From positions 1-33,354 of the forward strand of contig JAILOK010000052.1 in the NCBI GenBank assembly GCA_024690825.1: a stretch of DNA of 33,354 bases. The letters are read 5' to 3'. The position numbers and the translations under genes are program-made. Shown here one piece after another: positions 1,521-16,107 of the stretch; positions within the stretch are counted from its first letter, which is position 1, and each line of letters begins with the position of its first letter. Below the pieces are notes generated by a model. It ran no database searches and was not told where the DNA came from. It worked only from the letters and a program-made list of their open reading frames with translations. The DNA comes from Lachnospiraceae bacterium (lineage in GTDB: Bacteria; Bacillota; Clostridia; Lachnospirales; Lachnospiraceae).

Positions 1521-1757
1521 ATGGGAATCAATAAAAATGAACTGACTGCAGAACAGATCAGAAAAGCGATGGAATGCAAAGATGCAGCTGAACTGATGGA
1601 GTTTGCAAAGGCCGAAGGCTTTGAGATCACAAAGGAAGAGGCACAAGGTTATCTTGAGGAACTGTCCGACATCGAGCTTGATAAAGAAAACCTGGGCAAG
1701 ATTGCAGGAGGAGGATGCTACCCGGACTGCAAGAATGATTTTTGTTTTGAAAATTAA
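1521..1757 (+). CDS. Nif11-type RiPP precursor peptide with a three-cysteine core
   Basis: The product is a 78-aa precursor peptide. Residues 1-65 fit the Nif11-like leader family (TIGR03798 type): helical acidic segments, FAKAEGFEIT near residues 28-37, then YLEELSD and a final IAGGG (61-65), the double-Gly site cut by C39 exporter peptidases. The predicted core is residues 66-78, CYPDCKNDFCFEN. Its three Cys (66, 70, 75) are each followed at +3 by Asp, Asp and Asn. A strong ribosome site (AAGGAGG, 1508-1514) sits 6 bases before the ATG. The gene is directly followed by a radical SAM/SPASM maturase (15-base gap) and then a C39 exporter, so a thioether or related radical modification of the core is the obvious inference. 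The mature product is unknown. Confidence 0.92.
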   Translation: MGINKNELTAEQIRKAMECKDAAELMEFAKAEGFEITKEEAQGYLEELSDIELDKENLGKIAGGGCYPDCKNDFCFEN

Positions 1758-1772
1758 AGAGAACAGATACGG

Positions 1773-3314
1773 ATGAGAACCAGTACATATGAGATCATAA
1801 TTCCCCTCACAGGAAGCGATAAAAAGGAGATACAGGGAAAAAAACTCCTGATGAACGGTCTTTACGGCGCCATGGATGTTGTGGATGATAAGACCGCAGC
1901 AGCAATCGAAAAGGATGAGACAGATGACCTTCCGGCAGATATTCGTGAACGACTGGCATCAAGGGGTCATATCACGCGAAGGAGTGTGGAGTGGGAACTG
2001 AAGGATGTGGAGCTTCTCGGGAGGATCCATGCCCGGACGGAGGCGCGGGTGTCTGTGGCTCCGGTGATCCTTCCCACCTACAACTGCAATTTCCGCTGTC
2101 CCTACTGCTTTGAAAGACACAGACTCTCAAGGGGCGAGGAATGGCTTAAAGCCGGCATGAAGCCGGAGATGGTGGATGCCGTCTTTTCGGCGCTTAAAAA
2201 GCAGAGGGAAAAGGGAAGGGTCATAAAAGGCTGCTCTCTCTACGGCGGTGAGCCCTTTTTGAAGGAAAACAAAGAGACGGTGCGAAACATCTGCGAGCAT
2301 GCAAAAGAGATGGGACTGACCATGAGCGCCATCACAAACGGCTATGACCTGGATCATTACATCGATCTTTTAAAGGAGTATGATTTCAAAAAACTCCAGA
2401 TCACAGTGGACGGAGTGGGGAGCACAAATGACAGCAGGCGCCTTCACCGCGACGGTGTGCCTACCTATGAAAAGATAATGTCAAACATCGCCCTTGCTTT
2501 GGAAAACGGTATTTCCATAAGCCTCCGGGTAAATGTAAACGGCGGAAACATAGGCGGCATCAGTGACCTGATCGGGGATATAGAAAAGCGCGGTCTGAAT
2601 GATCACGAAAAATTCAGCTTCTATTTCAAGGCCGTCTCCGAGGATGAATCCTCTCCGGACCATGTAACGGAAAGGATGGTCATGGACGAGCTTTTGAAGA
2701 CCGGCATGTCCGTTACGGAAGCCATAAAAAAACAGAGCATGTACAGCATGCATCTTTCCGTGATAGAGGGTCTCCTGAAAAAAGAGTCCCTTCCCGGATA
2801 TTCCACATCATTCTGCGGCGCCGAAAAGGGAATGATGTGCATAGCACCTGACGGAAAGCTCTATCCCTGCTGGGACATCGTGGGCATGGATGAAGACACG
2901 GTGGGGCATACCGACATCGAAAGCGGGAATTTCATTTATTATTTTAATAAGGTCAAATGGAAGCTGCGTACCTCGGACAGAATGGAACCCTGCAGGACCT
3001 GCCCCTACATCTTTGTATGCAGGGGAGGATGTGTTTCCGAGGCAAAAAAGAAGCACGGGAGCTATTTCAGGGAAGCCTGCTCGGAGAATCGCGAAAACTT
3101 CTGTTTTGTGGCATCCTGCGCTGCCGGAAGGAAATATGAGGAGACAGGGCAGACGGAGCTTTCCCTGTCGCAGTTCGGCCCGCTTTCAAGACTTACCGAA
3201 GACGAGCGCAAATATCTCATGGAGGAAAAGGATCCCAACGAGATCTACAGGCTCATAAAGGAATACGGACTGGTAAGCCCGGCAGAGGAAAAGCAGGACG
3301 ATCCGGATCTTTGA
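1773..3314 (+). CDS. Radical SAM/SPASM peptide maturase
   Basis: The product has 513 aa. Residues 1-90 form an N-terminal region typical of RiPP maturases that may bind the leader. The radical SAM motif CX3CX2C is complete at C105, C109 and C112 (NCNFRCPYCFE), followed by a YGGEP segment that contacts SAM. The C-terminal SPASM domain is well formed: C348, a G-x4-C at C366, the C407-x2-C410-x5-C416-x3-C420 run, and C436, enough for one or two auxiliary 4Fe-4S clusters. Family members install thioether, C-C or other radical-derived crosslinks in ribosomal peptides. The position directly after the Nif11 precursor makes that peptide the likely substrate. Which bond is made cannot be read from sequence. 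The start ATG has only a weak ribosome site, suggesting translational coupling to the precursor. Confidence 0.93.
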   Translation: MRTSTYEIIIPLTGSDKKEIQGKKLLMNGLYGAMDVVDDKTAAAIEKDETDDLPADIRERLASRGHITRRSVEWELKDVELLGRIHARTEARVSVAPVILPTYNCNFRCPYCFERHRLSRGEEWLKAGMKPEMVDAVFSALKKQREKGRVIKGCSLYGGEPFLKENKETVRNICEHAKEMGLTMSAITNGYDLDHYIDLLKEYDFKKLQITVDGVGSTNDSRRLHRDGVPTYEKIMSNIALALENGISISLRVNVNGGNIGGISDLIGDIEKRGLNDHEKFSFYFKAVSEDESSPDHVTERMVMDELLKTGMSVTEAIKKQSMYSMHLSVIEGLLKKESLPGYSTSFCGAEKGMMCIAPDGKLYPCWDIVGMDEDTVGHTDIESGNFIYYFNKVKWKLRTSDRMEPCRTCPYIFVCRGGCVSEAKKKHGSYFREACSENRENFCFVASCAAGRKYEETGQTELSLSQFGPLSRLTEDERKYLMEEKDPNEIYRLIKEYGLVSPAEEKQDDPDL

Positions 3315-3340: not shown

Positions 3341-3838
3341 ATGGGAAAAAATGACAAAAACGAGGCTGCATCTGCTGTGCGCAGCCTTGACGAACTTGAC
3401 AGAGCCGTAAAGATCACCACCCCCGGGATATGGATGGTGCTTTTGGCGTGTTTTGCCCTGCTGGCAGGGATCCTTGCCTGGGGTTTTTTCGGTACGGTTT
3501 CCGCCGGTGTCAGTGCAAGCGGCATCATGGAAAACGGAAAGCTCGTCTGTATCCTTGACCCTGATGAGGCGGAACTCATCAAAAAGGGGGATACTGCCGT
3601 TATAGACGGAAAGAACTTCAGCATTGAAAAGATCGGAAGTGTACCGTTATCGAGAACAGAGGCAAAAGAACTCCTCGGAAGTGATTATCTGGTCAGTGAA
3701 AACATGAACGGCGACTGGGCATTGCCCGTCACACTTGTTCCCGAAGATAACGGTGTTTTTCCCGACGGCTCCCTCCTGTCCTTTAAAATCGTGACCGGGA
3801 GGATCTCACCTGTGTCCATGATCTGGAAGGATATCTGA
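3341..3838 (+). CDS. Short HlyD-like membrane protein of the NHLM export system
   Basis: The product has 165 aa, with one predicted transmembrane helix at about residues 29-51 and an extracytoplasmic small beta-rich segment behind it. The N-terminal layout (a short LDELDRAVKIT segment, then a helix with PGIWMVLLACF and a GFFGTV turn) resembles the NHLM secretion proteins (TIGR03794 type, HlyD/membrane-fusion family). Those are usually several hundred residues and contain a long coiled coil, which is missing here. It lies between the maturase and the C39 exporter, with 26-base and 4-base gaps, so it most likely assists export. AAGAGG at 3331-3336 supports the start at 3341. The functional assignment relies on context and on the N-terminal resemblance. 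Confidence 0.7.
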   Translation: MGKNDKNEAASAVRSLDELDRAVKITTPGIWMVLLACFALLAGILAWGFFGTVSAGVSASGIMENGKLVCILDPDEAELIKKGDTAVIDGKNFSIEKIGSVPLSRTEAKELLGSDYLVSENMNGDWALPVTLVPEDNGVFPDGSLLSFKIVTGRISPVSMIWKDI

Positions 3839-3842
3839 AGTT

Positions 3843-6008
3843 ATGAGCATATTCCGGAAAAAAACCAGAGTCCCTCAGGTGATGCAGATGGAGGCTACGG
3901 AATGCGGAGCCGCCTGTCTTTGCATGATCCTGGCCTGTTACGGCAGATGGGAACCGCTTGAAAAACTCCGTGAAACCTGCGGTGTGAGCAGGGACGGCTC
4001 CAATGCGTCAAGCATAATAAAAGCCGCGCGCTCCTTCGGACTTGAGGGAAAGGGACGTGCCATGCGGCTTTCCGCCATTCAGAAAAAGAAGCCCTTTCCC
4101 TGCATAGCATTCTGGGATTATTCCCATTTTGTCGTCATCAGGGATATGAAAAAGAAGAGTGTTTTCATAAACGACCCTGCAGGCGGCGATTTAAAGATCT
4201 CCATCGATGATTTCAACAAACATTATTCGGGGATCGTTCTGACCTTTGAAAAGACCGATGAATTCAAGCCCGGCGGGAGCAGACCCGATGTACTGGGGTA
4301 TGTGATCAAACGCCTCAAAGGGCTTTCTTCCTCAATTCTTTTTGTGATGCTCACATCGGCGGCAGTGTCTCTTGCACTTATTATGAATACGGGAGTCAGC
4401 AGGATATTTTTGGACGGTATCCTGACAGAAGGGCACAGGGAGTGGTGTTTCCCGCTTTGTCTCTTTATGCTTTTGTTTGCCCTCATCATCTCGGTGGCAT
4501 CCATGATCAATGCCGTTTATTTCCTCCGCATACAGGGAAAGGCGGCGATGCTTGCCTCATCCCGCTTTTTTGAGCATCTGCTGCATCTGCCGCTGGGATT
4601 TTTTGCCCAGCGTTCCATCGGCGATCTGCAGGTGAGGCAGAGCGAAAATGAAAATGTGGTCACCACCTTTTTAGGCCAGTTTGCGCCTGTTCTCATAGAC
4701 TGCATCATGCTCATTCTCTATCTTGTCATAATGCTCCGCTATTCCGTGGTCCTCACCGTGGTAGGAGTCTTCACTGTTCTCATGAATGCCTTTGTTTCTG
4801 CTTATATCGCAAAAAAAAGGATCAATATCTCCCGGGCAATGTTTGCCGATACGGGAAAGTATTTCGGTGCCACGGTCAGCGGCATAGAGATGATAGAGAC
4901 CATCAAAGCCTCCGGTGTTGAAAATGAATTTTTCAGCTCCTGGGGCGGTTATCAGGCTGCCGTAAATGATGCGGATGTACGCATGAGACGCATAGATGCG
5001 TATCTCGGGATGATACCTGAGGCTTTGACACAGGCTGCAGGTATTATAGTGCTGTGCCTGGGGATCCGTCTCATAGTCAATGGGGAGATGACTCCCGGTA
5101 CGCTGCTTGCCTTCACCGGATTTATGACGGCCTTTCTCACTCCCGTCATGGAGATCATACGTCTGGGGCAGACGGTCCAGGAGGCCAGGACCCAGATGGA
5201 GCGGCTGGAGGATGTGATGAATTATCCCGCGGATACATCGGAGGATAATAAAAACGATGCCGGGGAGGATATGCTTAATAAATCCAAGCTGTCCGGCAGG
5301 ATAGATCTGGAGGATGTGACCTTTGGCTACGCGCCCCTTGAGCCTCCTCTCATAGAGGATTTTTCCCTTCATGTAAAGCCCGGACAGTGGGTGGCTTTAG
5401 TGGGGGAAAGCGGCTGCGGCAAATCCACCATAGGAAAGCTCGTAACCGGACTCTACAGGCCTTGGTCAGGAAAGGTGAAATTTGACGGCTGCCCTGTCGA
5501 AAAGATCCCGAACGGGCTTTTGCGAAGTTCCCTTGCCGTAGTTGATCAGGATATTTCGGTCTTTGATGATACGATAGCCGACAATGTGAGGCTCTGGGAC
5601 GGATCCATAGAGGATTTTGAGGTGATACTTGCCTGCCGGGATGCGGAGATACACAGTGACATCATGGAGCGTCCAGAGGGCTATGAGGACATGATCGTGC
5701 CTCAGGGAAAGAACTTTTCCGGAGGACAGCTCCAGCGTCTGGAGATAGCAAGGACACTGGCTCTGGATCCTTCCATCATCATCCTTGACGAGGCAACGAG
5801 TGCTCTGGATGCAGAGACGGAAGCAGCCATTTTAAATAATATCAGGGAACGCGGGATCACCTGTATCATAGCTGCCCACAGGCTAAGCACAGTGAGAAAC
5901 TGTGATGAGATCATAGTGCTTGAAAAGGGCAGGATCAAAGAGCGGGGTACACATGAAGAGCTCATGGCAGCAGACGGTAAATATGCAAAACTCATAAGGA
6001 GTGACTGA
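3843..6008 (+). CDS. C39 peptidase-containing ABC exporter (NHLM bacteriocin type)
   Basis: The product is a 721-aa bifunctional exporter. The N-terminal C39 peptidase has its catalytic Cys in TECGAAC (C21), His at H95 (YSHFVV) and Asp at D111 (NDPAGG). It should cut the leader after the double Gly. A six-helix transmembrane region covers about residues 155-440. The C-terminal ATPase has Walker A GESGCGKST (near residue 521), signature FSGGQLQR, Walker B IIILDEATSALD and the switch His in AAHRLS. The arrangement matches the PCAT family and the NHLM peptidase/ATP-binding exporters (TIGR03796 type). The gene is 4 bases after the HlyD-like gene and its stop lies 2 bases before the next start, so the export genes are tightly coupled. 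The substrate is inferred to be the modified peptide encoded at 1521. Confidence 0.95.
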   Translation: MSIFRKKTRVPQVMQMEATECGAACLCMILACYGRWEPLEKLRETCGVSRDGSNASSIIKAARSFGLEGKGRAMRLSAIQKKKPFPCIAFWDYSHFVVIRDMKKKSVFINDPAGGDLKISIDDFNKHYSGIVLTFEKTDEFKPGGSRPDVLGYVIKRLKGLSSSILFVMLTSAAVSLALIMNTGVSRIFLDGILTEGHREWCFPLCLFMLLFALIISVASMINAVYFLRIQGKAAMLASSRFFEHLLHLPLGFFAQRSIGDLQVRQSENENVVTTFLGQFAPVLIDCIMLILYLVIMLRYSVVLTVVGVFTVLMNAFVSAYIAKKRINISRAMFADTGKYFGATVSGIEMIETIKASGVENEFFSSWGGYQAAVNDADVRMRRIDAYLGMIPEALTQAAGIIVLCLGIRLIVNGEMTPGTLLAFTGFMTAFLTPVMEIIRLGQTVQEARTQMERLEDVMNYPADTSEDNKNDAGEDMLNKSKLSGRIDLEDVTFGYAPLEPPLIEDFSLHVKPGQWVALVGESGCGKSTIGKLVTGLYRPWSGKVKFDGCPVEKIPNGLLRSSLAVVDQDISVFDDTIADNVRLWDGSIEDFEVILACRDAEIHSDIMERPEGYEDMIVPQGKNFSGGQLQRLEIARTLALDPSIIILDEATSALDAETEAAILNNIRERGITCIIAAHRLSTVRNCDEIIVLEKGRIKERGTHEELMAADGKYAKLIRSD

Positions 6009-6010
6009 TC

Positions 6011-8203
6011 TTGTCAGACAGGGATTTTTTTGAATCGCAGATTGATATACGGAGCCGTCTGGATGAAAAGCAAAAAAGACGGGCCTTTGAAAAGCTTGCC
6101 GCCGGTATCGGAGCGGCAGGTGTTTTTGGCACGGGTCCGGATGAGGGAGGAGAGCTTTTAGACCGTGCGGTCAGGCTGTGCCTGAAATACTACGGACACA
6201 GTACGGGGAAGGCTCCGGGGGGTGTGACGCAGCCTGAGGAAAGGCTTGAGTATCTTTGCCGTCCCTGCTCCGTCATGCACAGAAGCGTGACCTTAAAGGA
6301 TGACTGGGAAAAAAACGCCTTCGGACCGATGATGGGAAAGCTTAAAAGCGGGGAATATGCCGCGATCATCCCGGGAGGTCTGGGAGGTTATTATTATACT
6401 GATCCCCGTGACGGGAAAAGGAAGAGGATAACGAAAAAGAACAGGGAGCTTTTTGAAGAGGAAGCGGTGTTTTTTTACCGTTCGCTGCCTGCCGGCAGGC
6501 TTGGAAAAAATGATCTGCTTTTCTTCATGCTGGGATCCCTTGATGCGGGTGATTTCATCCTGGTCTTTCTGGCTGCGCTTGCTGCCGCACTGACCGGTCT
6601 TTTGCCGCCCTGGGCAAACAAGCTGGGCTTCAGTCTGGTTGTGCCCTCCGGCAACAGCAGCCTCGTCGCGCCCATAGCGGCACTGCTTTTCGGGGTGGCG
6701 GTTTCGGCACTTCTCATAAATGCCTGCAGAAATCTCCTGATGGGCAGGGTTTCCATCAAGATGGGGATATATGCGGAGTCGGCGGGCTACGCCAGGCTGA
6801 TGAACCTGCCCGTGACTTTTTTCAGGAAGTACAATTCCGGTGATCTTGCGGTGAGGATCACATCATTGCGGGAGCTTGCCGAGGTTTTGACTCTGGTTGC
6901 CGCAGGTTCCGGACTGACCTGTCTTTTGTCCCTGATATATCTGTTTCAGATCGCAAGATACGCTCATGGTCTGGTGGTCCCGGCATTTCTGACCGTTCTG
7001 GCACAGGGGCTGTTCACCGTCATAGCCTTTGCCGTCACTTTGCGTTTTGAAAAGAAAAAGACGGAGGCAAATGCCGGGCTTTCGGGAACGGTGACTTCAA
7101 TGCTTGCCGGGATACAAAAGATCAAGCTTGCCGGAGCGGAAAACCGGGCCTTTGCAAAATGGGCCAACAAATATTCCGCCTATTCCGGCCCTGCCTACAA
7201 CCGTCCGGCGCTGCTTCAGGCGCTTCCTTCGATCATCACGGTGACCGGGATAGTGGGAACGGTTTTTATCTATCATCTGGCTTCAAAAAGCGGTATCCGT
7301 TATGACGATTATATGGCCTTTAATGTTGCCTACGGCCAGATGAGTGCAGCCATCCTTGCCGCAGCGGGGATCGCACAGAGTGTTGTGCGCGTCGGACCTT
7401 TGTTTGATCTGGTATCGCCCCTGCTTTCGGAGATTCCGGAGGATTCCTCGGACATGCCCATCGTTGAAAATCTTAGAGGTTCGGTGGAGATTTCAAACAT
7501 ATACTTCCGCTACAGTGAAAAGAGTGCCTATGTGCTGGAGGACATTTCGTTCAAGGTCCGTCCCGGAGAGTATGTGGCCATAACGGGTCATTCAGGATGC
7601 GGGAAATCCACTCTGGTCAGGCTCCTTCTGGGATTTGAAAAGCCGGAAAAGGGCAGTATCTTTTATGATTCAAACAATCTGGCATCCGTTGATGCAGGTT
7701 CCGTGAGGCGCCATATAGGTACGGTGATGCAAAACAGCAGGCTTTTTGTGGGAAATATCCTCTATAACATAATCATTTCTTCGCCTGAGGCCTCACTTGA
7801 TGATGCCTGGGAGGCAGCAAAGCTTGCGGGGATCGCGGAGGACATCGGGCAGATGCCAATGGGAATGAAGACCCTCATATCCGAGGGTGGCAGCGGGCTC
7901 TCGGGAGGACAGCGCCAGCGTCTCATGATAGCGCGTGCCATCTGCAAGAAACCGGAGATCCTCATATTTGACGAGGCCACGAGCGCTCTTGATAATATTA
8001 CCCAAAAACATGTCTCCGATTCCCTCGATGCCCTCAAATGCACCAGGATAGTGGTGGCGCACAGGCTTTCAACCATCAAAAACTGCGACAGGATCCTCTG
8101 TCTTGACAGGGGAAGGATAGTCGAAGAAGGTACCTATGATGAGCTGATGGCAAAAAACGGTTTTTTTGCGGAGCTTGTTTCAAAGCAGCAGCTTGATAAG
8201 TAG
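6011..8203 (+). CDS. NHLM-type ABC exporter, second subunit without peptidase
   Basis: The product has 730 aa and starts with TTG at 6011, supported by AGGAG (5998-6002) overlapping the end of the C39 gene. Residues 1-175 form a soluble domain of the kind found in the second NHLM exporter protein (TIGR03797 type). It contains no C39 catalytic triad. The transmembrane region lies at about 178-460. The ATPase domain has Walker A GHSGCGKST (near 526), signature LSGGQRQR, Walker B ILIFDEATSALD and switch His in AHRLS. Systems with Nif11 or NHLP leaders commonly pair this protein with the C39 exporter. The two may form a heterodimer, or act as separate transporters. Both ATPases look catalytically complete, so nothing marks either as a degenerate half-site. 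Confidence 0.92.
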   Translation: MSDRDFFESQIDIRSRLDEKQKRRAFEKLAAGIGAAGVFGTGPDEGGELLDRAVRLCLKYYGHSTGKAPGGVTQPEERLEYLCRPCSVMHRSVTLKDDWEKNAFGPMMGKLKSGEYAAIIPGGLGGYYYTDPRDGKRKRITKKNRELFEEEAVFFYRSLPAGRLGKNDLLFFMLGSLDAGDFILVFLAALAAALTGLLPPWANKLGFSLVVPSGNSSLVAPIAALLFGVAVSALLINACRNLLMGRVSIKMGIYAESAGYARLMNLPVTFFRKYNSGDLAVRITSLRELAEVLTLVAAGSGLTCLLSLIYLFQIARYAHGLVVPAFLTVLAQGLFTVIAFAVTLRFEKKKTEANAGLSGTVTSMLAGIQKIKLAGAENRAFAKWANKYSAYSGPAYNRPALLQALPSIITVTGIVGTVFIYHLASKSGIRYDDYMAFNVAYGQMSAAILAAAGIAQSVVRVGPLFDLVSPLLSEIPEDSSDMPIVENLRGSVEISNIYFRYSEKSAYVLEDISFKVRPGEYVAITGHSGCGKSTLVRLLLGFEKPEKGSIFYDSNNLASVDAGSVRRHIGTVMQNSRLFVGNILYNIIISSPEASLDDAWEAAKLAGIAEDIGQMPMGMKTLISEGGSGLSGGQRQRLMIARAICKKPEILIFDEATSALDNITQKHVSDSLDALKCTRIVVAHRLSTIKNCDRILCLDRGRIVEEGTYDELMAKNGFFAELVSKQQLDK

Positions 8204-8215
8204 AGTTTTTGGACA

Positions 8216-8229
8216 GTTTATGGTATCAT
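8216..8229 (+). promoter_or_regulatory. Possible extended -10 promoter before the Hpt gene
   Basis: TGG-TATCAT (8221-8229) reads as an extended -10 element about 25 bases before the ATG at 8254. No good -35 is visible at the right distance. It may separate the signalling pair from the export operon, but no terminator is visible between them, so read-through is also possible. Confidence 0.3.
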
Positions 8230-8253
8230 CGAAAGATAGAGGAGACGGAGATC

Positions 8254-8595
8254 ATGATAACTTTAGATGCTTTGAAAGAATACGGCGCGGATACCGAAAC
8301 GGGACTTAAAAGATGCATGGGAAACGAAGCCCTGTACTTAAGGCTTGTGGGATCTGTCAAGGATGAACCCGGATTTGACGCGCTTAAAGATGCAATAGAA
8401 AAAAAGGATCTGGATAAAGCTTTTGATGCGGCTCATGCGTTAAAGGGGGTTTTGGGAAATCTTTCGCTGACACCGCTTTATGATGCGGTATCCGGGATCA
8501 CCGAAATGCTGCGCGCGCGGACTGACACGGATTATTCGGAACTTCTTGCAAAACTTCAGGAGGCAAGGGATGAGCTTGCAGGACTCTGCGGATAA
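8254..8595 (+). CDS. Hpt-domain phosphotransfer protein
   Basis: The product is 113 aa. I chose the ATG at 8254 because AGAGGAGA lies just upstream; an in-frame upstream ATG at 8209 would add 15 residues with no family resemblance. The segment AHALKGVLGNLSL matches the Hpt signature, in which the His accepts phosphate from a receiver domain. The flanking sequence is predicted helical, as in a four-helix bundle. The start of the hybrid kinase overlaps the last 26 bases of this gene, which implies translational coupling and a shared phosphorelay. Such a relay normally passes phosphate to a further response regulator, but none lies in this window. Confidence 0.88.
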   Translation: MITLDALKEYGADTETGLKRCMGNEALYLRLVGSVKDEPGFDALKDAIEKKDLDKAFDAAHALKGVLGNLSLTPLYDAVSGITEMLRARTDTDYSELLAKLQEARDELAGLCG

Positions 8596-11500
8596 AAAGA
8601 AACAATCCTTCGGGGAAAGAAGGACAGGCGTGATACAGGCGGCAGTTGCCGGCTGTATCATTGTTGCGGCAATTCTTATAATAGGAACAATCTGGACCGG
8701 AAAGAGCGCAAGCCGGGATGCCGAAAAGGCGGTCAGGAATGTCAGCCTTTTGTATTTGGATGAGCTTGCCGGCAGACGCGAGCAGGTAGTTGCCTCAACT
8801 CTCGAAGATTATGCCAAGGATATGGATGTTGCCATAGGACTCATAGACAAGAGCGATCTTGAAAGCGTGGAAGCCCTCCGGGAATATCAGGCAAGGATGA
8901 AGCAGCTGTACGGTCTTGAAAAATTTGCCTTTGTGGATGAGAACGGACTTATCTATACCTCACGCGGGACCAGGACCGATATCGACAGGTATGACTTTGA
9001 CTATAAAGAGATATCCGGACCGGAGATCTCGATCATGGATGCCGGCGAAAATGAGAGGAAGGTTGTCGTCGCCGAACCCGTGGACCGTCTCGATCTTTGC
9101 GGTCATAACCTGGTGGCTGCCTTCATGGAAATGGACATGGGAAACTTCCTTGATGCAGCGTCGCTTCAGACGGGGAACAACAAGACCACCTTCTGCAACA
9201 TATACAGGCATGACGGCATGTCATTTACGGGACTGGTGCTCGGAGGACTTTCCGACGAGGACAATCTTTTAAAGGCCCTGGAACATGCCGAATACGATGA
9301 AGGCTATGATTATGAGACCGTAAAAGATGAGTTTGAGCATAATAAAAGCGGAATTGTGTCCTTCACCTACGACGGTATCAGAGAAACCCTGAGCTATGTT
9401 CCGATCCACGGGACTGACTGGATGCTGACCTATCTCATACGCGAGAGCGTGATAAGCGATCAGATAGATGCCATTTCCGAAGGGATAATAGAAAGAAGCC
9501 TGATCCTTTCGGTCATCACTGCCCTGATCCTGCTTGCCATTTCCGCGGTGATGATCTTTCAGACGAGGAAGGCAGTATGTCTCATCTCTGAAAGAGAGAC
9601 GGCCGAAATGCTGCAGCAGGAGCTCGAAGAGAGGATCGCGCTTCAGGACGAGCTTTTAGAGCAGGAAAAAATGCGGACGCAGCAGGACAACATGATCACG
9701 GCAATGGCCTCCGATTACAGGAGTGTTTATTATGTGGATCTTGATACCGGGAGAGGCATCTGCTACAGGCGGGAGGATAACAGATACGATAATATCGGTC
9801 CCGGTGATGAATTTGACTACATGGAAAAGTTCAGCGAGTATGCACAAAACTATGTGGCTGAGGAGAACAGAGATGCTTTCCTTGAGTTTATCCGGCCCGA
9901 TTCGATACGCGAAGCCCTCAAGACCAATACGCTGATCACCTTAAGGTACCTTGTCAGAAAGGACGGAGAGGAAACCTATGAGATGCTGCGCATGGCGGGC
10001 GTCAGACACCCCGAGGACAGGGCTGATCATATCGTGCACGCTGTCGGCGCAGGCTTTACCGATATAGATTCGGAAATGAGAGATTCGCTTGCAAAGAACC
10101 AGGCGCTTTCGGACGCTCTTGCGGCAGCCGAGCAGGCAAGCAAGGCAAAGACAGCGTTCCTGTCAAATATGAGCCATGAGATAAGGACGCCCATGAATGC
10201 CATCATAGGACTTGATTCACTGGCGCTTCGAAGGGAGGATATTTCGGATGAGACGAGGGGATATCTTGAAAAGATCGGTGACAGCGCCAGGCATCTGCTG
10301 GGGCTTATCAATGATATCCTTGACATGAGCCGCATAGAATCCGGGCGGATAGTCCTGCGCAAGGAGGAATTTTCCTTCCGCGCGATGCTTGAACAGATAA
10401 ATACCATGGTGATGTCCCAGTGCAGCGAAAAAGGACTTAAGTATGAATGCAGGGTTACTGGCGGTGTCGCCGATTTCTATATAGGCGACGACATGAAGCT
10501 CAAGCAGGTTCTCATCAACATCCTCAGCAATGCCATAAAGTTCACCGATGCGCCGGGCGATGTCACTTTGGAGGTTGAAAGGACCAATGTCTTTGACGAT
10601 CAGACCACGATCAGATTCGTAATAAAGGATACCGGCGTGGGGATCAGCAGCCAGTTCCTCCCGATGATATTCGATTCCTTCACCCAGGAGGACAGCAGCC
10701 GGGTAAATAAATACGGATCCACGGGCCTGGGTATGGCCATCACAAAGAATATCGTGGAACTGATGAACGGCACGATATCCGTTGAATCCGAAAAAGGCGC
10801 GGGCACTCAGTTTACGGTGGTCATTACCCTGAGGAACTGTGATCATGCCGGTATAGACAGCAACTTTATCAATGTGAACGATCTGCGCATCCTTGTGGTG
10901 GATGATGAGGATGTGGCAGCGGAGCATGCGCGCCTGGTGCTTGATGAGGCGGGGATCAAGGCGGATGTGGCCTTAAGCGGTCCCGAAGCATTGAACATGC
11001 TTGAGGTTGCGCATACCAAGCAGGAGCATTACAACCTGGTGCTCCTTGACTGGAAGATGCCGGAAATGGACGGGATCGAGGTGGCCAGGGAGATCAGAAA
11101 GAGATATGACAACGAGACTACGGTCATCATCCTCACATCCTTTAACTGGGATGAGATAATGGACGAGGAGCTTCACATCGGTGTGGACAGCTTCCTCGCA
11201 AAGCCTTTATTTGCGTCAAATGTCGTGGATGAATTTGAAAGGATAGCGCACAGGAACAACATAAGCCTCATCAGGAAAAAGAAGAGGGCCGATCTTGCCG
11301 GAAAGAGGGTACTCCTTGCCGAGGATATGGAGATAAATGCCGAGATCATGAAGGAAGTGCTTGCGGTAAAGGAGATCGTCACCGAACATGCCGCAAACGG
11401 CATGGAAGCGCTTGAGATGTTCAAAAAGAGTGATGAGTTTTATTATGATGCCGTGCTCATGGATGTACGGATGCCGAAAATGGACGGACTTGAGGCGACT

Positions 11501-11701
11501 GAGGCGATCAGAAAGCTTGACAGAAAAGATGCCGGCATTACCCCGATCATCGCCATGACGGCAAATGCTTTTGATGAAGATGTTCAAAGATCTCTTCAGG
11601 TCGGAATGAACGCACACCTTTCAAAGCCCGTTGAGCCTGACAGACTTTATCAGTCCCTGGAGGAACTGATCTGGGAAGCGGGCGAAAAAATAAAAAGTTA
11701 A
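8570..11701 (+). CDS. Membrane hybrid histidine kinase with two receiver domains
   Basis: The product has 1043 aa from the ATG at 8570, which is preceded by CAGGAGG at the correct distance; the frame is open further upstream but without a ribosome site. In order: transmembrane helix 1 (about 21-43), an extracytoplasmic sensor of about 260 residues, transmembrane helix 2 (about 308-332), a coiled coil (340-375), a PAS-like region, HisKA with the phosphorylated H536 in SHEIRTPMNAI, and an ATPase with N-box SNAIKF, DTGVGIS and GSTGLGM. The first receiver has its Asp at D827 (LLDWKMPEMDG) and the second at D965 (LMDVRMPKMDG). Both look active. The gene overlaps the Hpt gene. The signal is unknown. 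Its position after a RiPP export operon allows, but does not prove, a role in sensing the peptide. Confidence 0.93.
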   Translation: MSLQDSADKKKQSFGERRTGVIQAAVAGCIIVAAILIIGTIWTGKSASRDAEKAVRNVSLLYLDELAGRREQVVASTLEDYAKDMDVAIGLIDKSDLESVEALREYQARMKQLYGLEKFAFVDENGLIYTSRGTRTDIDRYDFDYKEISGPEISIMDAGENERKVVVAEPVDRLDLCGHNLVAAFMEMDMGNFLDAASLQTGNNKTTFCNIYRHDGMSFTGLVLGGLSDEDNLLKALEHAEYDEGYDYETVKDEFEHNKSGIVSFTYDGIRETLSYVPIHGTDWMLTYLIRESVISDQIDAISEGIIERSLILSVITALILLAISAVMIFQTRKAVCLISERETAEMLQQELEERIALQDELLEQEKMRTQQDNMITAMASDYRSVYYVDLDTGRGICYRREDNRYDNIGPGDEFDYMEKFSEYAQNYVAEENRDAFLEFIRPDSIREALKTNTLITLRYLVRKDGEETYEMLRMAGVRHPEDRADHIVHAVGAGFTDIDSEMRDSLAKNQALSDALAAAEQASKAKTAFLSNMSHEIRTPMNAIIGLDSLALRREDISDETRGYLEKIGDSARHLLGLINDILDMSRIESGRIVLRKEEFSFRAMLEQINTMVMSQCSEKGLKYECRVTGGVADFYIGDDMKLKQVLINILSNAIKFTDAPGDVTLEVERTNVFDDQTTIRFVIKDTGVGISSQFLPMIFDSFTQEDSSRVNKYGSTGLGMAITKNIVELMNGTISVESEKGAGTQFTVVITLRNCDHAGIDSNFINVNDLRILVVDDEDVAAEHARLVLDEAGIKADVALSGPEALNMLEVAHTKQEHYNLVLLDWKMPEMDGIEVAREIRKRYDNETTVIILTSFNWDEIMDEELHIGVDSFLAKPLFASNVVDEFERIAHRNNISLIRKKKRADLAGKRVLLAEDMEINAEIMKEVLAVKEIVTEHAANGMEALEMFKKSDEFYYDAVLMDVRMPKMDGLEATEAIRKLDRKDAGITPIIAMTANAFDEDVQRSLQVGMNAHLSKPVEPDRLYQSLEELIWEAGEKIKS

Positions 11702-12954: not shown

Positions 12955-14520
12955 TTATCTGTCGTACCATTTCTCGGCATCCTTACGGAATTTGTCGAAT
13001 GCCTCGTGATTCATGTAGATCATGTGTCCCGAAGGATAATAAGTAAAGGACAGATTATCCTCCCTGTTTTCGGGTATGAATGCATGATTGTATGCCCATT
13101 CGGCCGAATAGAACGGAGTCGCGCCATCGTAATATCCGCAGAGAACCCAGATCTTTAAGAAGGAATTCTTTCCGAGACATCCGGCAATGATATCCTGCTG
13201 GTTAAGATACTCGCCCTCGGGAAATGTCCATTTTGTGTTCACTTCAAGAGAAAGAGGAATGAAGGGAGTGTCCGTATCATATCCGAGTTCACTCGTGAGG
13301 TATTCCAGATAGGAATTTGTGTAAGCGATATCCGTGGAAAAGCCGGAAGGGTCACCTGATCCGTCATCAAGGGAGCCTCCGGTGTTCGGCCCCGTGATCC
13401 TGCCGTCATATCTGCCTACCATCAGTCCTTCATCTTTAAGAAGATTGGAAGAGAAGACATCCAGGTCGATTCTTAAATTGTTTTCGAGGATCAGATCTTT
13501 GGGCAGACCTATGTAGCCGGACATCTTTTCAGCCAGATCATCCTTTTTTGCTTTTGGCAGCCTCCTGCCGATAAAAAGCGCGGGAACATATTCCGTCTCC
13601 ACAAATTCACGGACTTCTTCCAGATAATCCTCAAGCTCCATGTCCAGATATTCTTCGGAGAGTTTTTTGTGATACCAGGCGTCTGCCGCATATGTGGGGA
13701 TATAGACCGTGTAGGGTGTATCGTTGCCGCCGCCGGCCATCAGCGCGGAATAATCGTTGACAGTTGAAATGAGCATCAGGCCGTTTATATATACCGCGTA
13801 ACGGTTTACCAGATAATCGCACACGCCGACCGCGCGTACGGTCCCGTAGGATTCGCCTGCGATATACTTCTTCGATCCCCATCTTTTCTTGCGGTTGGTA
13901 TACTGGCGGATGAAATCCCCCACCGACTGGATATCCTTATCGTATCCGAGGAAATAGTCCTCGTCCTCCTCGTTGGATGCATGTGAATAGCCTGTTCCCA
14001 CGGGATCGATGAAGACAAGATCCGTCATGTCAAGAACGGAATTCTCATTGTCGATGATCTTTGTGGGCAGAGAAACGGCACAGCCCGTTTCATCAAGCTC
14101 GGCAGTGCGGGGTCCGAGACATCCGAACTGTATGCAGTAACTGCTGGCGCCGGGGCCGCCGTTGAAGGCAAAGGTGACAGGACGGTCTGTCTTATCTTCG
14201 ATATCGTCTCTTGTATATGCGGTATAAAACATTTCGCATGTTTTTCCGCCGCTTTCAAGGACCATTGTGCCGGCCTCCGCCGTGTAGGAGATATCTTCTC
14301 CCTTGATAGAAACCGTATGCTTTGTCGTGACTATGTTGTCATCAGGCCGCTCGCTTTTGCCGCCTTCTTCGTCCTCGTCCCTGCCCGTTTCGGGTTCTTC
14401 CGCTTCTTCCTTCATCTCCTCGATGACCCCATCGGAAGCAGCGGGTTCCGCAAACGCCGATGTCGGAAAAGCGCAGACGAAAAGACCGGTGATCGTGATC
14501 CATGCCAGTGTTTTTTTCAT
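12955..14520 (-). CDS. Secreted S10-family serine carboxypeptidase-like protein
   Basis: The product has 521 aa. A Sec signal peptide of about 24 residues (cut after SAFA) precedes a very acidic low-complexity linker (about 33-60). The catalytic domain shows the S10 hallmarks: NGGPGASS for the oxyanion hole (120-127), FIDPVGTGYSH (170-180), the nucleophile Ser224 in GESYG, Asp465 in CGYYDGATPF, and His499 in SGHMIY. All three triad residues are in expected order and spacing, so the enzyme should be active outside the cell, trimming C-terminal residues of peptides or hydrolysing esters. The start is supported by AGGAGGG on the minus strand and by an extended -10 promoter about 40 bases upstream. 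It is transcribed convergently with the phosphatase and divergently from the MATE pump, apparently as a single gene. Confidence 0.9.
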   Translation of the reverse strand: MKKTLAWITITGLFVCAFPTSAFAEPAASDGVIEEMKEEAEEPETGRDEDEEGGKSERPDDNIVTTKHTVSIKGEDISYTAEAGTMVLESGGKTCEMFYTAYTRDDIEDKTDRPVTFAFNGGPGASSYCIQFGCLGPRTAELDETGCAVSLPTKIIDNENSVLDMTDLVFIDPVGTGYSHASNEEDEDYFLGYDKDIQSVGDFIRQYTNRKKRWGSKKYIAGESYGTVRAVGVCDYLVNRYAVYINGLMLISTVNDYSALMAGGGNDTPYTVYIPTYAADAWYHKKLSEEYLDMELEDYLEEVREFVETEYVPALFIGRRLPKAKKDDLAEKMSGYIGLPKDLILENNLRIDLDVFSSNLLKDEGLMVGRYDGRITGPNTGGSLDDGSGDPSGFSTDIAYTNSYLEYLTSELGYDTDTPFIPLSLEVNTKWTFPEGEYLNQQDIIAGCLGKNSFLKIWVLCGYYDGATPFYSAEWAYNHAFIPENREDNLSFTYYPSGHMIYMNHEAFDKFRKDAEKWYDR

Positions 14521-14611: not shown

Positions 14612-14732
14612 CGGATGATACACATAATTTGCCCCTATGCGTGCATCCTTGCACGGATTTGCTGCGCGGTGAACATTCGCTAAGATAATAACAGCATCCT
14701 CACAGAGCACAATATTATATGTGCATCATCCG
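14612..14732 (+). other. Imperfect long-range inverted repeat enclosing a hairpin, upstream of MATE gene
   Basis: CGGATGAT (14612-14619) pairs with ATCATCCG (14725-14732). After one mismatch, CACATA (14621-14626) pairs with TATGTG (14718-14723), giving 14 closing pairs. Inside lies a hairpin, CGTGCA (14640-14645) with TGCACG (14650-14655). The element fills the space before the MATE gene and its right arm overlaps the alternative ATG at 14719. It may be a folded RNA leader or a very small mobile element. I do not recognise a known riboswitch class. Confidence 0.45.
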
Positions 14733-14751
14733 GGAAAAACAGTATGAAAAA

Positions 14752-16107
14752 ATGAAGCAGAAAAATTTCATCAATGCAAACTATATAAAGAAAATACTCG
14801 TGATCGCGGTTCCGATAATGCTCTCGAACCTCATCTCGCAGCTGCAGATGCTCATCGACAAGATCTTCATCGGAAGGCTGTCTTTGGAGGCCATGAGCGC
14901 GGTGGGAAATGCATCCACCCCGATGTGGACTACCATGAGCCTTATGTTTTCGCTGACCACGGGAGCAACGATCGTTGTCAGCCAGGCATATGGCGCGAAT
15001 GAAACGGATAAGGCAAAGAATACGCTTGCATCGCTTTTCAAATACAACAATGTGATGGGGGTGCTTTTATTCCTGTTCTGGTTTTTCATCCCGCAGACAG
15101 CATTTCATCTGATGGGCGTGGATGAGAGCATCATGGGGATGTGTACCGATTACGCGGTATATTTTGCACCGATCTTTATCATGAACGGGATAGGAACCTC
15201 GGTCAGCTGCCTTCTGCAGGTCAGTCAGAAGACTCAGATAATGATAGCGTACGGAGTATCAAGATCTGTCGCAAACGTGATACTCGACTATATAATGATC
15301 TTCGGACATTTCGGATTTCCGGCCATGGGCGTGAAGGGAGCGGCTCTGGCCACGACACTTGCAGAGGTTTTAGGAGACCTGATCGTACTGATATATGTCC
15401 TGGCTTCAAAGAAACTGAAGCTGCGTCCCTCATTTAAGCAGATAATGGCATCGGCTTTCAGACCGTACGCGGATACGATAAAAATGGGGGCGCCGGCAGC
15501 CTGCGAGGATTTTGCATGGAATCTCGGAAATCTGTATCTGATCGTCATGCTCAACAGGATATCGGTGGAAGCCGCTGGGATACATTCCATTGTCTTCAGC
15601 GTCGAGCTTATAGCAGTGGTGCTTGTCGGTTCGATAGGAACAGCCACTCTGACACTCTCGGGATATGAGACGGGAAAAAAGAATCCCGGGGGAGTATGGG
15701 AGGTTGTGAAAAATTCGGCCATATTAAGCTGGAGCATCTGCCTTGTCAATCTGGTCCTGTTTTTATTATGTCCGAAACAGATACTGGGACTGTTCACAAA
15801 GGATGCGGCAGTCATCAAAGCGGCCGGATTATATCTCCTTGTTGTGGGTGTGGATCTTTTCCCGAAGAGCGGAAATATCATTTTCGGCTCAGGCATAAAG
15901 GGCTTCGGACGGCCGGGCTGGATGTTAAAGACACAGATTTTGGGGACCGTGTTTATCATCACCTTCAGCACGGTCATGGTCCTGGTTTTTCACATGGGGA
16001 TCATCGAGATATTCTGTCTGGTGGTGGTCGACGAGACGCTGCGGTTCCTCCTCAACAACTGGAAACTGAAGAGCATCAGAAAAACGAAAGAGGAGATCAT
16101 GAAATGA
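14752..16107 (+). CDS. MATE-family multidrug/cation efflux protein
   Basis: The product has about 451 aa and about twelve hydrophobic helices, in two six-helix halves typical of MATE transporters. It starts with KKILVIAVPIMLSNLISQ, and PIMLSN and the IGRL turn after helix 1 are characteristic, as is the GATIVVSQAYGA segment in helix 2. MATE pumps exchange drugs or metabolites for Na+ or H+ across the membrane. Neither start has a strong ribosome site. I prefer the ATG at 14752, because MATE proteins usually begin a few residues before the first helix, but ATG 14719 would add 11 residues and overlaps the inverted repeat. It is a single-gene unit closed by a terminator just after its stop. The substrate cannot be told. 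Confidence 0.9.
   Translation: MKQKNFINANYIKKILVIAVPIMLSNLISQLQMLIDKIFIGRLSLEAMSAVGNASTPMWTTMSLMFSLTTGATIVVSQAYGANETDKAKNTLASLFKYNNVMGVLLFLFWFFIPQTAFHLMGVDESIMGMCTDYAVYFAPIFIMNGIGTSVSCLLQVSQKTQIMIAYGVSRSVANVILDYIMIFGHFGFPAMGVKGAALATTLAEVLGDLIVLIYVLASKKLKLRPSFKQIMASAFRPYADTIKMGAPAACEDFAWNLGNLYLIVMLNRISVEAAGIHSIVFSVELIAVVLVGSIGTATLTLSGYETGKKNPGGVWEVVKNSAILSWSICLVNLVLFLLCPKQILGLFTKDAAVIKAAGLYLLVVGVDLFPKSGNIIFGSGIKGFGRPGWMLKTQILGTVFIITFSTVMVLVFHMGIIEIFCLVVVDETLRFLLNNWKLKSIRKTKEEIMK

Follow-up and report, generated by a model that had tools for sequence, protein, structure and literature searches.

A Nif11-like leader precursor in Lachnospiraceae and a putative Cys(i)-to-i+3 thioether register in its radical SAM/SPASM maturase family

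Introduction

Three-residue cyclophanes (triceptides) are formed on aromatic-x-x units, streptococcal Asn-Cys beta-thioether peptides show an NxxC spacing, and prochlorosins, which are LanM lanthipeptides using Ser/Thr, combine many unlinked Nif11-type precursors with one enzyme. Here we analyze 33,354 nucleotides of a rumen Lachnospiraceae bacterium (contig JAILOK010000052.1 of assembly GCA_024690825.1, hereafter the window), which encode a small precursor peptide with three Cys-x-x-Asp/Asn units next to a radical SAM/SPASM maturase. Cores of its relatives show a preference at the third residue after Cys (Cys+3), and the maturase, which has a CteB-like fold, probably forms a thioether between Cys(i) and a carbon in the side chain of residue i+3.

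PapB accepts CXnD with n = 0-6, going to completion in vitro for n of 1-5, CX2D included (PMC9413430), streptosactin carries alpha-carbon links between Cys25 and Ser28 and between Cys31 and Gly34 in unnested four-residue rings (PMC8172795), and a streptococcal peptide has a Cys-Asn S-C beta link (PMC11002830). Ruminal ranthipeptides were treated via antiSMASH in a Hungate1000 bacteriocin paper (PMC13289728), and the words Nif11 and Succiniclasticum are absent from its main text. In the literature covered by title and start of abstract, with most subscription papers outside it, there was no report of this enzyme group, of a Cys-X2-Asp ranthipeptide or of a prenyltransferase/SPASM fusion.

Precursor gene, leader and core

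The precursor gene and its parts are as follows.

1521-1757, + strand: precursor peptide gene, 78 residues (ATG start; open reading frame list and leader hidden Markov model matches)
1521-1715, + strand: Nif11-like leader, residues 1-65, ending in Gly-Gly-Gly (TIGR03798, 27.1 bits; PF07862, 20.4 bits; both below cut-off)
1716-1754, + strand: core CYPDCKNDFCFEN, 13 residues with three C-x-x-D/N units (sequence; conservation in relatives)
1716-1727, 1728-1739, 1740-1742 and 1743-1754, + strand: core units CYPD, CKND, F and CFEN, respectively (sequence)

The product ends with IAGGG followed by CYPDCKNDFCFEN, and by analogy the leader would be cleaved after Gly-Gly. The open reading frame, the letters of the core and the Asp or Asn (D/N) at each Cys+3 are as given in the preliminary description of this DNA. 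Its assignment of the leader to Nif11 stands at the family level, since five of nine relatives scanned against TIGR03798 reached at least the cut-off of 32.3 bits (one of them exactly), three scored 27.2-30.7 and one had no match; the window protein itself scored 27.1 bits. When the letters of CYPDCKNDFCFEN were shuffled, all three Cys had D/N at +3 in 1,509 of 200,000 cases (0.75%), so that the pattern of this core alone is only suggestive. The core has no D/E at Cys+4, and it has no Ser/Thr, which excludes a lanthipeptide.

The reverse strand of the precursor gene is also open in one frame, and reverse-strand open reading frames of 105 and 53 residues overlap parts of it; the product conserved elsewhere is that of the + strand. 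A repeat scan reported no repeats around the gene. Promoter-like sites (4 versus 3.2 by chance) and terminator-like sites (8 versus 3.9) were not used.

The residue three positions after cysteine

The register was assessed in two sets of cores against a null model in which the letters were shuffled inside each core. The first set comprised 150 distinct cores in 118 clusters at 50% similarity, after 23 precursor open reading frames were dropped (no Gly-Gly at the expected place, truncation at a contig end or a core of more than 60 residues). The prediction for +3 was written down before the second set was fetched from 30 loci and 60 stretches hand-chosen among the matches listed. Its 213 open reading frames, 19 of which were dropped, gave 132 distinct cores; the 72 that were less than 50% similar to the first set formed 51 hold-out clusters. 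The combined set holds 169 non-redundant cores.

In the combined set, Asp, Glu or Asn (D/E/N) occupied Cys+3 in 110 of 328 cases (56.1 expected; z score, 8.8), while Gly and Ser were strongly depleted there (9/328 versus 49.5; z = -6.5). Gly alone was found at +3 five times among 328 (30.6 expected) and 120 times among 984 at +1, +2 and +4 (Fisher test, P = 8e-11). The first set showed the same enrichment both for D/N (58/229 versus 28.3; z = 6.5) and for D/E/N (80/229 versus 38.4; z = 7.9), the only other raised offset being -1 (D/E/N, z = 4.1), and the register held in three hand-made bands of maturase identity of this set (z = 3.1, 6.0 and 4.3). In the 51 hold-out clusters the signal was weaker than in the first set, with D/E/N at +3 in 30 of 99 cases (18.0 expected; z = 3.3) and Gly/Ser in 3 of 99 (12.7 expected; z = -3.1), and with Fisher P values that, for the hold-out alone, are 0.02 (Gly) and 0.04 (D/E/N). 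Across the family, D/E/N was flat at +4 (51/319 versus 52.6) and at -3 (52/263 versus 56.6). Chance was rejected as an explanation by the shuffles, by a shuffle fixing the part up to the first Cys, by looser clustering and by the hold-out.

Cys was also rare just before the end of the core, being second-last once and third-last four times (about 20 expected each). At conserved Cys, weighted substitution was 0.13 at +3 and 0.17-0.26 at other offsets, and, counted by family, +3 was better kept than +1 in 13 cases to 4 and than +2 in 10 to 5.

The residues raised at +3 were Asp, Val, Arg, Glu, His, Tyr, Leu and Asn, and those lowered were Gly, Ser, Thr, Trp, Cys and Met. Four further precursors with this leader lie on three other contigs of the same genome, with cores CYMEDCQKHTMLD, HSCYMVDGCAFKCGTLKDC, DECYLDC and CWTNCPKEAECPGHACGTVGWENLIG; the 10 Cys in them that have a +3 residue are followed there by D/N twice, by Glu twice and by Val, Lys, Leu or His six times. 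The preliminary description had read the regular spacing as a donor/acceptor code of D/N. The register itself is upheld, being position-specific across the 169 cores and invariant in the ortholog group of the window core. The wide range of +3 residues and the paralogs of the same genome exclude a code of D/N alone, which is therefore better described as a preference. Likewise, the conservation of D/N at +3 among homologs, which that description had named as its own test, is found in the ortholog group and fails in the paralogs.

Conservation of the core across species

The window core and its closest relatives, here called type I, were found in six variants, carried by 11 distinct genes: CYPDCKNDFCFEN in the window, CYPDCKNDYCFEN, CYADCQNDYCFEN, CYPDCEKDYCFEN, CYPDCPKDYCFEN and CYPDCDKDYCFEN. 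Only positions 3, 6, 7 and 9 vary, and the D/N at all three Cys+3 is invariant. The genes were found in Lachnospiraceae, Selenomonadales and Acidaminococcaceae, and one (L179) in a bin that contains a Spirochaetia locus as well; relatives are mostly metagenome bins, where single placements such as the latter could be mis-binned. The maturases beside two of these genes (L103 and L126) are 47% and 41% identical to that of the window and fall outside its supported clade. A further copy of the core, with most of its leader missing, lies in genome G045 (L033:9672-9746, - strand; MGRIAGGGCYPDCKNDYCFEN).

Among type I pairs whose leaders share no more than 80% identity, cores were 86% and leaders 66% identical, and 48% of the core codons for identical residues differed. 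The corresponding figures for the core CYMVDGCAFKCGTLKDC were 96%, 58% and 51%; the same comparisons for types III, VI and VII rest on 3, 2 and 5 pairs. Conserved cores with drifting leaders and differing codons suggest that selection, and not recent copying, maintains these peptides. Almost no change across phyla is seen in CYMVDGCAFKCGTLKDC and several further cores (L034, L043, L076, L080, L083, L084, L095, L099, L109 and others).

Maturase family and fold

The gene that follows the precursor encodes the maturase.

1773-3314, + strand: radical SAM/SPASM maturase, 513 residues (profile matches, alignment and predicted structure)
2085-2108, + strand: radical SAM motif C105-x3-C109-x2-C112 (invariant columns in an alignment of 73 maturase sequences)
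2814-3080, + strand: SPASM domain with seven invariant Cys (348, 366, 407, 410, 416, 420 and 436; profile and maturase alignment)

A radical SAM/SPASM maturase thus adjoins a Cys-containing precursor, the gene arrangement of ranthipeptides. The CxxxCxxC motif is present in 73/73 aligned maturases. The AlphaFold2 (AF2) model of the window enzyme, with a predicted local distance difference test (pLDDT) value of 93, has as its nearest solved structure 5wgg/5why, which we take to be the thioether maturase CteB (thermocellin/SCIFF). The match extends over about the whole chain, N-terminal domain included (Foldseek, VIA-align), and 5wgg is also the best profile match among solved structures (maturase residues 96-435). 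By analogy, the first ~90 residues, which align to the N-terminal part of 5wgg, would be a leader-binding domain.

In the comparison with NCBIfam, limited to the 25 best of the 74 models that match the maturase, only the SPASM domain model exceeds its cut-off. The nearest profile is the CefB family NF038107 (157.3 bits; cut-off, 600), which all 73 aligned maturases match at 1e-10, followed by TIGR04463 (138 bits; cut-off, 525), Clo7bot (122 bits; cut-off, 600), and PapB NF047865 (115.5 bits; cut-off, 340); SCIFF TIGR03974 gave 62.4 bits (cut-off, 425). Since all these scores lie below their cut-offs, no listed model names the maturase group, which stands near known thioether maturases. PADLOC matches of the maturase to viperins were read as the common radical SAM core.

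Proposed chemistry and alternative explanations

In the mechanism that we favor, the maturase would bond the sulfur of Cys(i) to a carbon in the i+3 side chain, and each such link would close a four-residue turn, as in ranthipeptides. The system looks like a ranthipeptide with a putative link. A +3 position that prefers Asp, tolerates many residues and avoids Gly and Ser fits a side-chain thioether acceptor, and the occurrence of Pro/Tyr at +1 and of Thr/Ser/Asn at +2 suggests a turn between Cys and the +3 residue. The four-residue spacing of C-x-x-D/N, which the preliminary description expected to give smaller rings, is chemically plausible, as PapB closes CX2D in vitro (PMC9413430). As a control with known chemistry, precursors beside PapB-type enzymes had D/E at Cys+4 in 6/6 and 2/4 Cys; this control covers two precursor kinds from the four loci above the cut-off used, of 28 PapB-like loci.

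Several observations weigh against this mechanism. Most +3 residues (218/328) are not D/E/N, and in the hold-out D/N was also raised, without having been predicted, at +2 (z = 2.9) and -1 (z = 4.2), about as strongly as at +3 (z = 3.2). The same offsets are raised in the combined set (-1, 79/344 versus 49.6, z = 5.2; +2, 64/332 versus 46.9, z = 2.9), and the -1 signal comes mostly, but not wholly, from CxxDC runs (with no Cys at -4, 68/284; z = 2.2). The count by family does not set +3 apart from +4 (better kept in 7 cases to 6), and type I cores keep Tyr2, Phe11 and Glu12 without exception, just as they keep the +3 residues. Cys is the last residue, with no +3 partner, in 14 cases (20 expected), and 14/169 clusters are Cys-free, which implies some additional activity of the enzyme or of a partner. 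Loci with several maturases contributed to the pooled counts, and likeness of fold leaves the attacked carbon unspecified.

The raised +2 offset, in the hold-out and overall, is what a thioether peptide of mixed registers (+2, +3 and others) would show, with the acceptor set by local structure. Some relatives do carry CX3D (CYMVD and CYMED), and the range of n accepted by PapB is likewise broad (PMC9413430). We consider this explanation unlikely, because Gly is avoided at +3 only and because the type I residues at +2 vary at two of the three units (P/A and N/K), those at +3 never; it overlaps with the mechanism that we favor, and the probabilities we assign do not sum to one. A sactipeptide would keep the register and attach the sulfur to the alpha carbon, as streptosactin does with its i to i+3 links (PMC8172795), and radical SAM/SPASM enzymes of both classes have a common fold. 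Yet streptosactin uses Ser and Gly as acceptors, the very residues depleted at +3 here, and the nearest profile families (CefB, TIGR04463, Clo7bot and PapB), although matched at scores far below cut-off, include a proven non-alpha enzyme, which makes alpha-carbon links rather improbable.

We find it about equally improbable that there is no +3 crosslink at all, C-x-x-D/E/H being a feature of peptides that bind metals or form disulfides, with the enzyme performing other chemistry such as epimerization. Cys-rich cores with Asp, Glu or His at +3 could bind metals, and the structural matches of the maturase include PqqE and the epimerase EpeE; on the other hand, the enrichment of Val, Arg, Tyr and Leu and the depletion of Cys at +3 are unlike ligands, and Cys avoids the second- and third-last positions. 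Finally, the YPD and FEN of the window core would fit aromatic three-residue cyclophanes, in which Tyr or Phe is linked to the D/N two positions on and Cys is a bystander, and D/N at +2 from an aromatic residue is weakly raised (51/274 versus 40.7, z = 1.9; hold-out, 21/87 versus 15.1, z = 1.6). This signal vanishes when no Cys precedes the aromatic residue (25/195, or 0.128 versus 0.138; z = -0.5), whereas that of Cys+3 persists without an aromatic residue at +1 (76/249, or 0.305 versus 0.195; z = 4.7), and CKND has no aromatic residue. An aromatic-centered code, as tested on the cores, is thus not supported, and we regard cyclophanes as very improbable.

Distribution of relatives

The genome of the window encodes one maturase of this family at an E value of 1e-20 or better. 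At the same threshold a maturase match was found in 10/48 genomes of the genus, and at 1e-50 in 3/397 genomes of the family, two of them from the same genus. The cluster is syntenic in three genomes of this genus, where the type I gene is accompanied by two or three extra precursors. Scanning species genomes gave 168 relatives, the best 80 of which correspond to 79 loci, and the hosts among these 80 were rumen and gut Lachnospiraceae, Selenomonadales, Acidaminococcaceae, Spirochaetia, Synergistales and a few others.

With a leader profile built and iterated on the same loci as those analyzed, precursors at an E value of 1e-4 were found in 23 of the 24 whole genomes behind the chosen loci. Counts reached 31, 32 and 24 precursors per genome, spread over many contigs, the last in the genome with the Succiniclasticum ruminis DSM 9236 locus. 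One locus (L065:10318-15551) has three tandem maturases, 46-50% identical to the window enzyme; one precursor was detected between these genes. The same leader family includes Spirochaetia precursors with the Cys-free cores DGTTRTINAKLYG, NAYSEGYGND and GNGYAGDY (L091, L093, L095, L096, L110 and L121). The search found no viral relatives of the precursor, and the maturase profile matched 15 viral loci at 24-31% identity over parts of the query.

Gene neighborhood and accessory protein

The window starts at a contig edge, and the precursor gene sits between the gene of a truncated SPASM protein and that of the maturase, which is followed by export genes.

2-1471, + strand: accessory protein, N-terminally truncated by the contig edge (prenyltransferase-like, radical-SAM-like and SPASM-like domains)
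3341-3838, + strand: short HlyD-like export protein, 165 residues (TIGR03794, 31.6 bits; cut-off, 156.2)
3843-6008, + strand: NHLP exporter with C39 leader peptidase (TIGR03796, 889.4 bits, above the cut-off of 853.3; PF03412)
6011-8203, + strand: second NHLP-type ABC exporter subunit (TIGR03797, 672.8 bits, below the cut-off of 709.4, yet the top match)

The accessory protein is 81.8% identical to P0005 over residues 88-574 of the latter, a stop-to-stop frame whose first Met is residue 23; a full-length copy lies at L031:8097-9821. It is predicted to combine an ABBA/PT-barrel prenyltransferase-like domain with a radical-SAM-like and a SPASM-like domain, and the AF2 model of P0005, compared with the PDB, has the PT-barrel fold. 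CxxxCxxC is absent from all 19 rows of its alignment, while the SPASM-like domain has seven conserved Cys. By hand count, the accessory protein occurs at 25 of 83 distinct maturase loci (94 loci including 11 duplicate copies), many of which stop at contig edges.

By analogy, the C39 peptidase of the 3843-6008 exporter would cut after Gly-Gly. The product of 3341-3838 aligns to positions 4-59 only, of 421, in the NHLM HlyD model. Directly after the export genes, 8209-11701 encodes an Hpt protein and a hybrid histidine kinase with two receivers, which are possible regulators. Judged by eye, the products of 12955-14520 (- strand) and 14719-16107 (+ strand) are a serine carboxypeptidase-like protein, whose GGPGASS motif we take as a sign of such enzymes, and a MATE-like transporter.

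Significance and comparison with known systems

Our broader proposal is tentative, and we consider it doubtful as a whole. The maturase family might read a simple local Cys-x-x-Z rule, where Z has a suitable side chain, and make thioether turns of four residues in unlinked precursors numbering dozens per genome, the prenyltransferase/pseudo-radical-SAM/SPASM fusion might prenylate Tyr or Trp after Cys, and products constant across phyla might be shared rumen signals or antagonists. If the link to residue i+3 that we favor is real, ring positions would be predictable from sequence alone for a large unstudied set of rumen peptides, and the enzyme could serve, under the guidance of a leader, to install short thioether turns in varied sequences. 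Cores kept strictly across phyla beside drifting leaders point to a shared target or use.

Like the freyrasin/PapB ranthipeptides (Cys-X3-Asp, S-C beta), this system has a radical SAM/SPASM maturase and repeated units from Cys to a downstream acidic residue; it differs in the CX2 rather than CX3 spacing of the window core, in its Nif11-like leader, in an acceptor range that looks wider and in NHLP export. CteB of thermocellin (SCIFF) is alike in whole-chain structure, but the window precursor is different. Streptosactin, a GggB sactipeptide, shares the step from Cys to i+3 and uses the Ser/Gly acceptors that are avoided at +3 here, while the streptococcal Asn-Cys peptides share the Asn acceptor and the four-residue span, with an acceptor that precedes Cys. 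Prochlorosins are alike in their many unlinked precursors; the present system differs from them in its radical SAM enzyme, in a core free of Ser/Thr and in cores kept across phyla.
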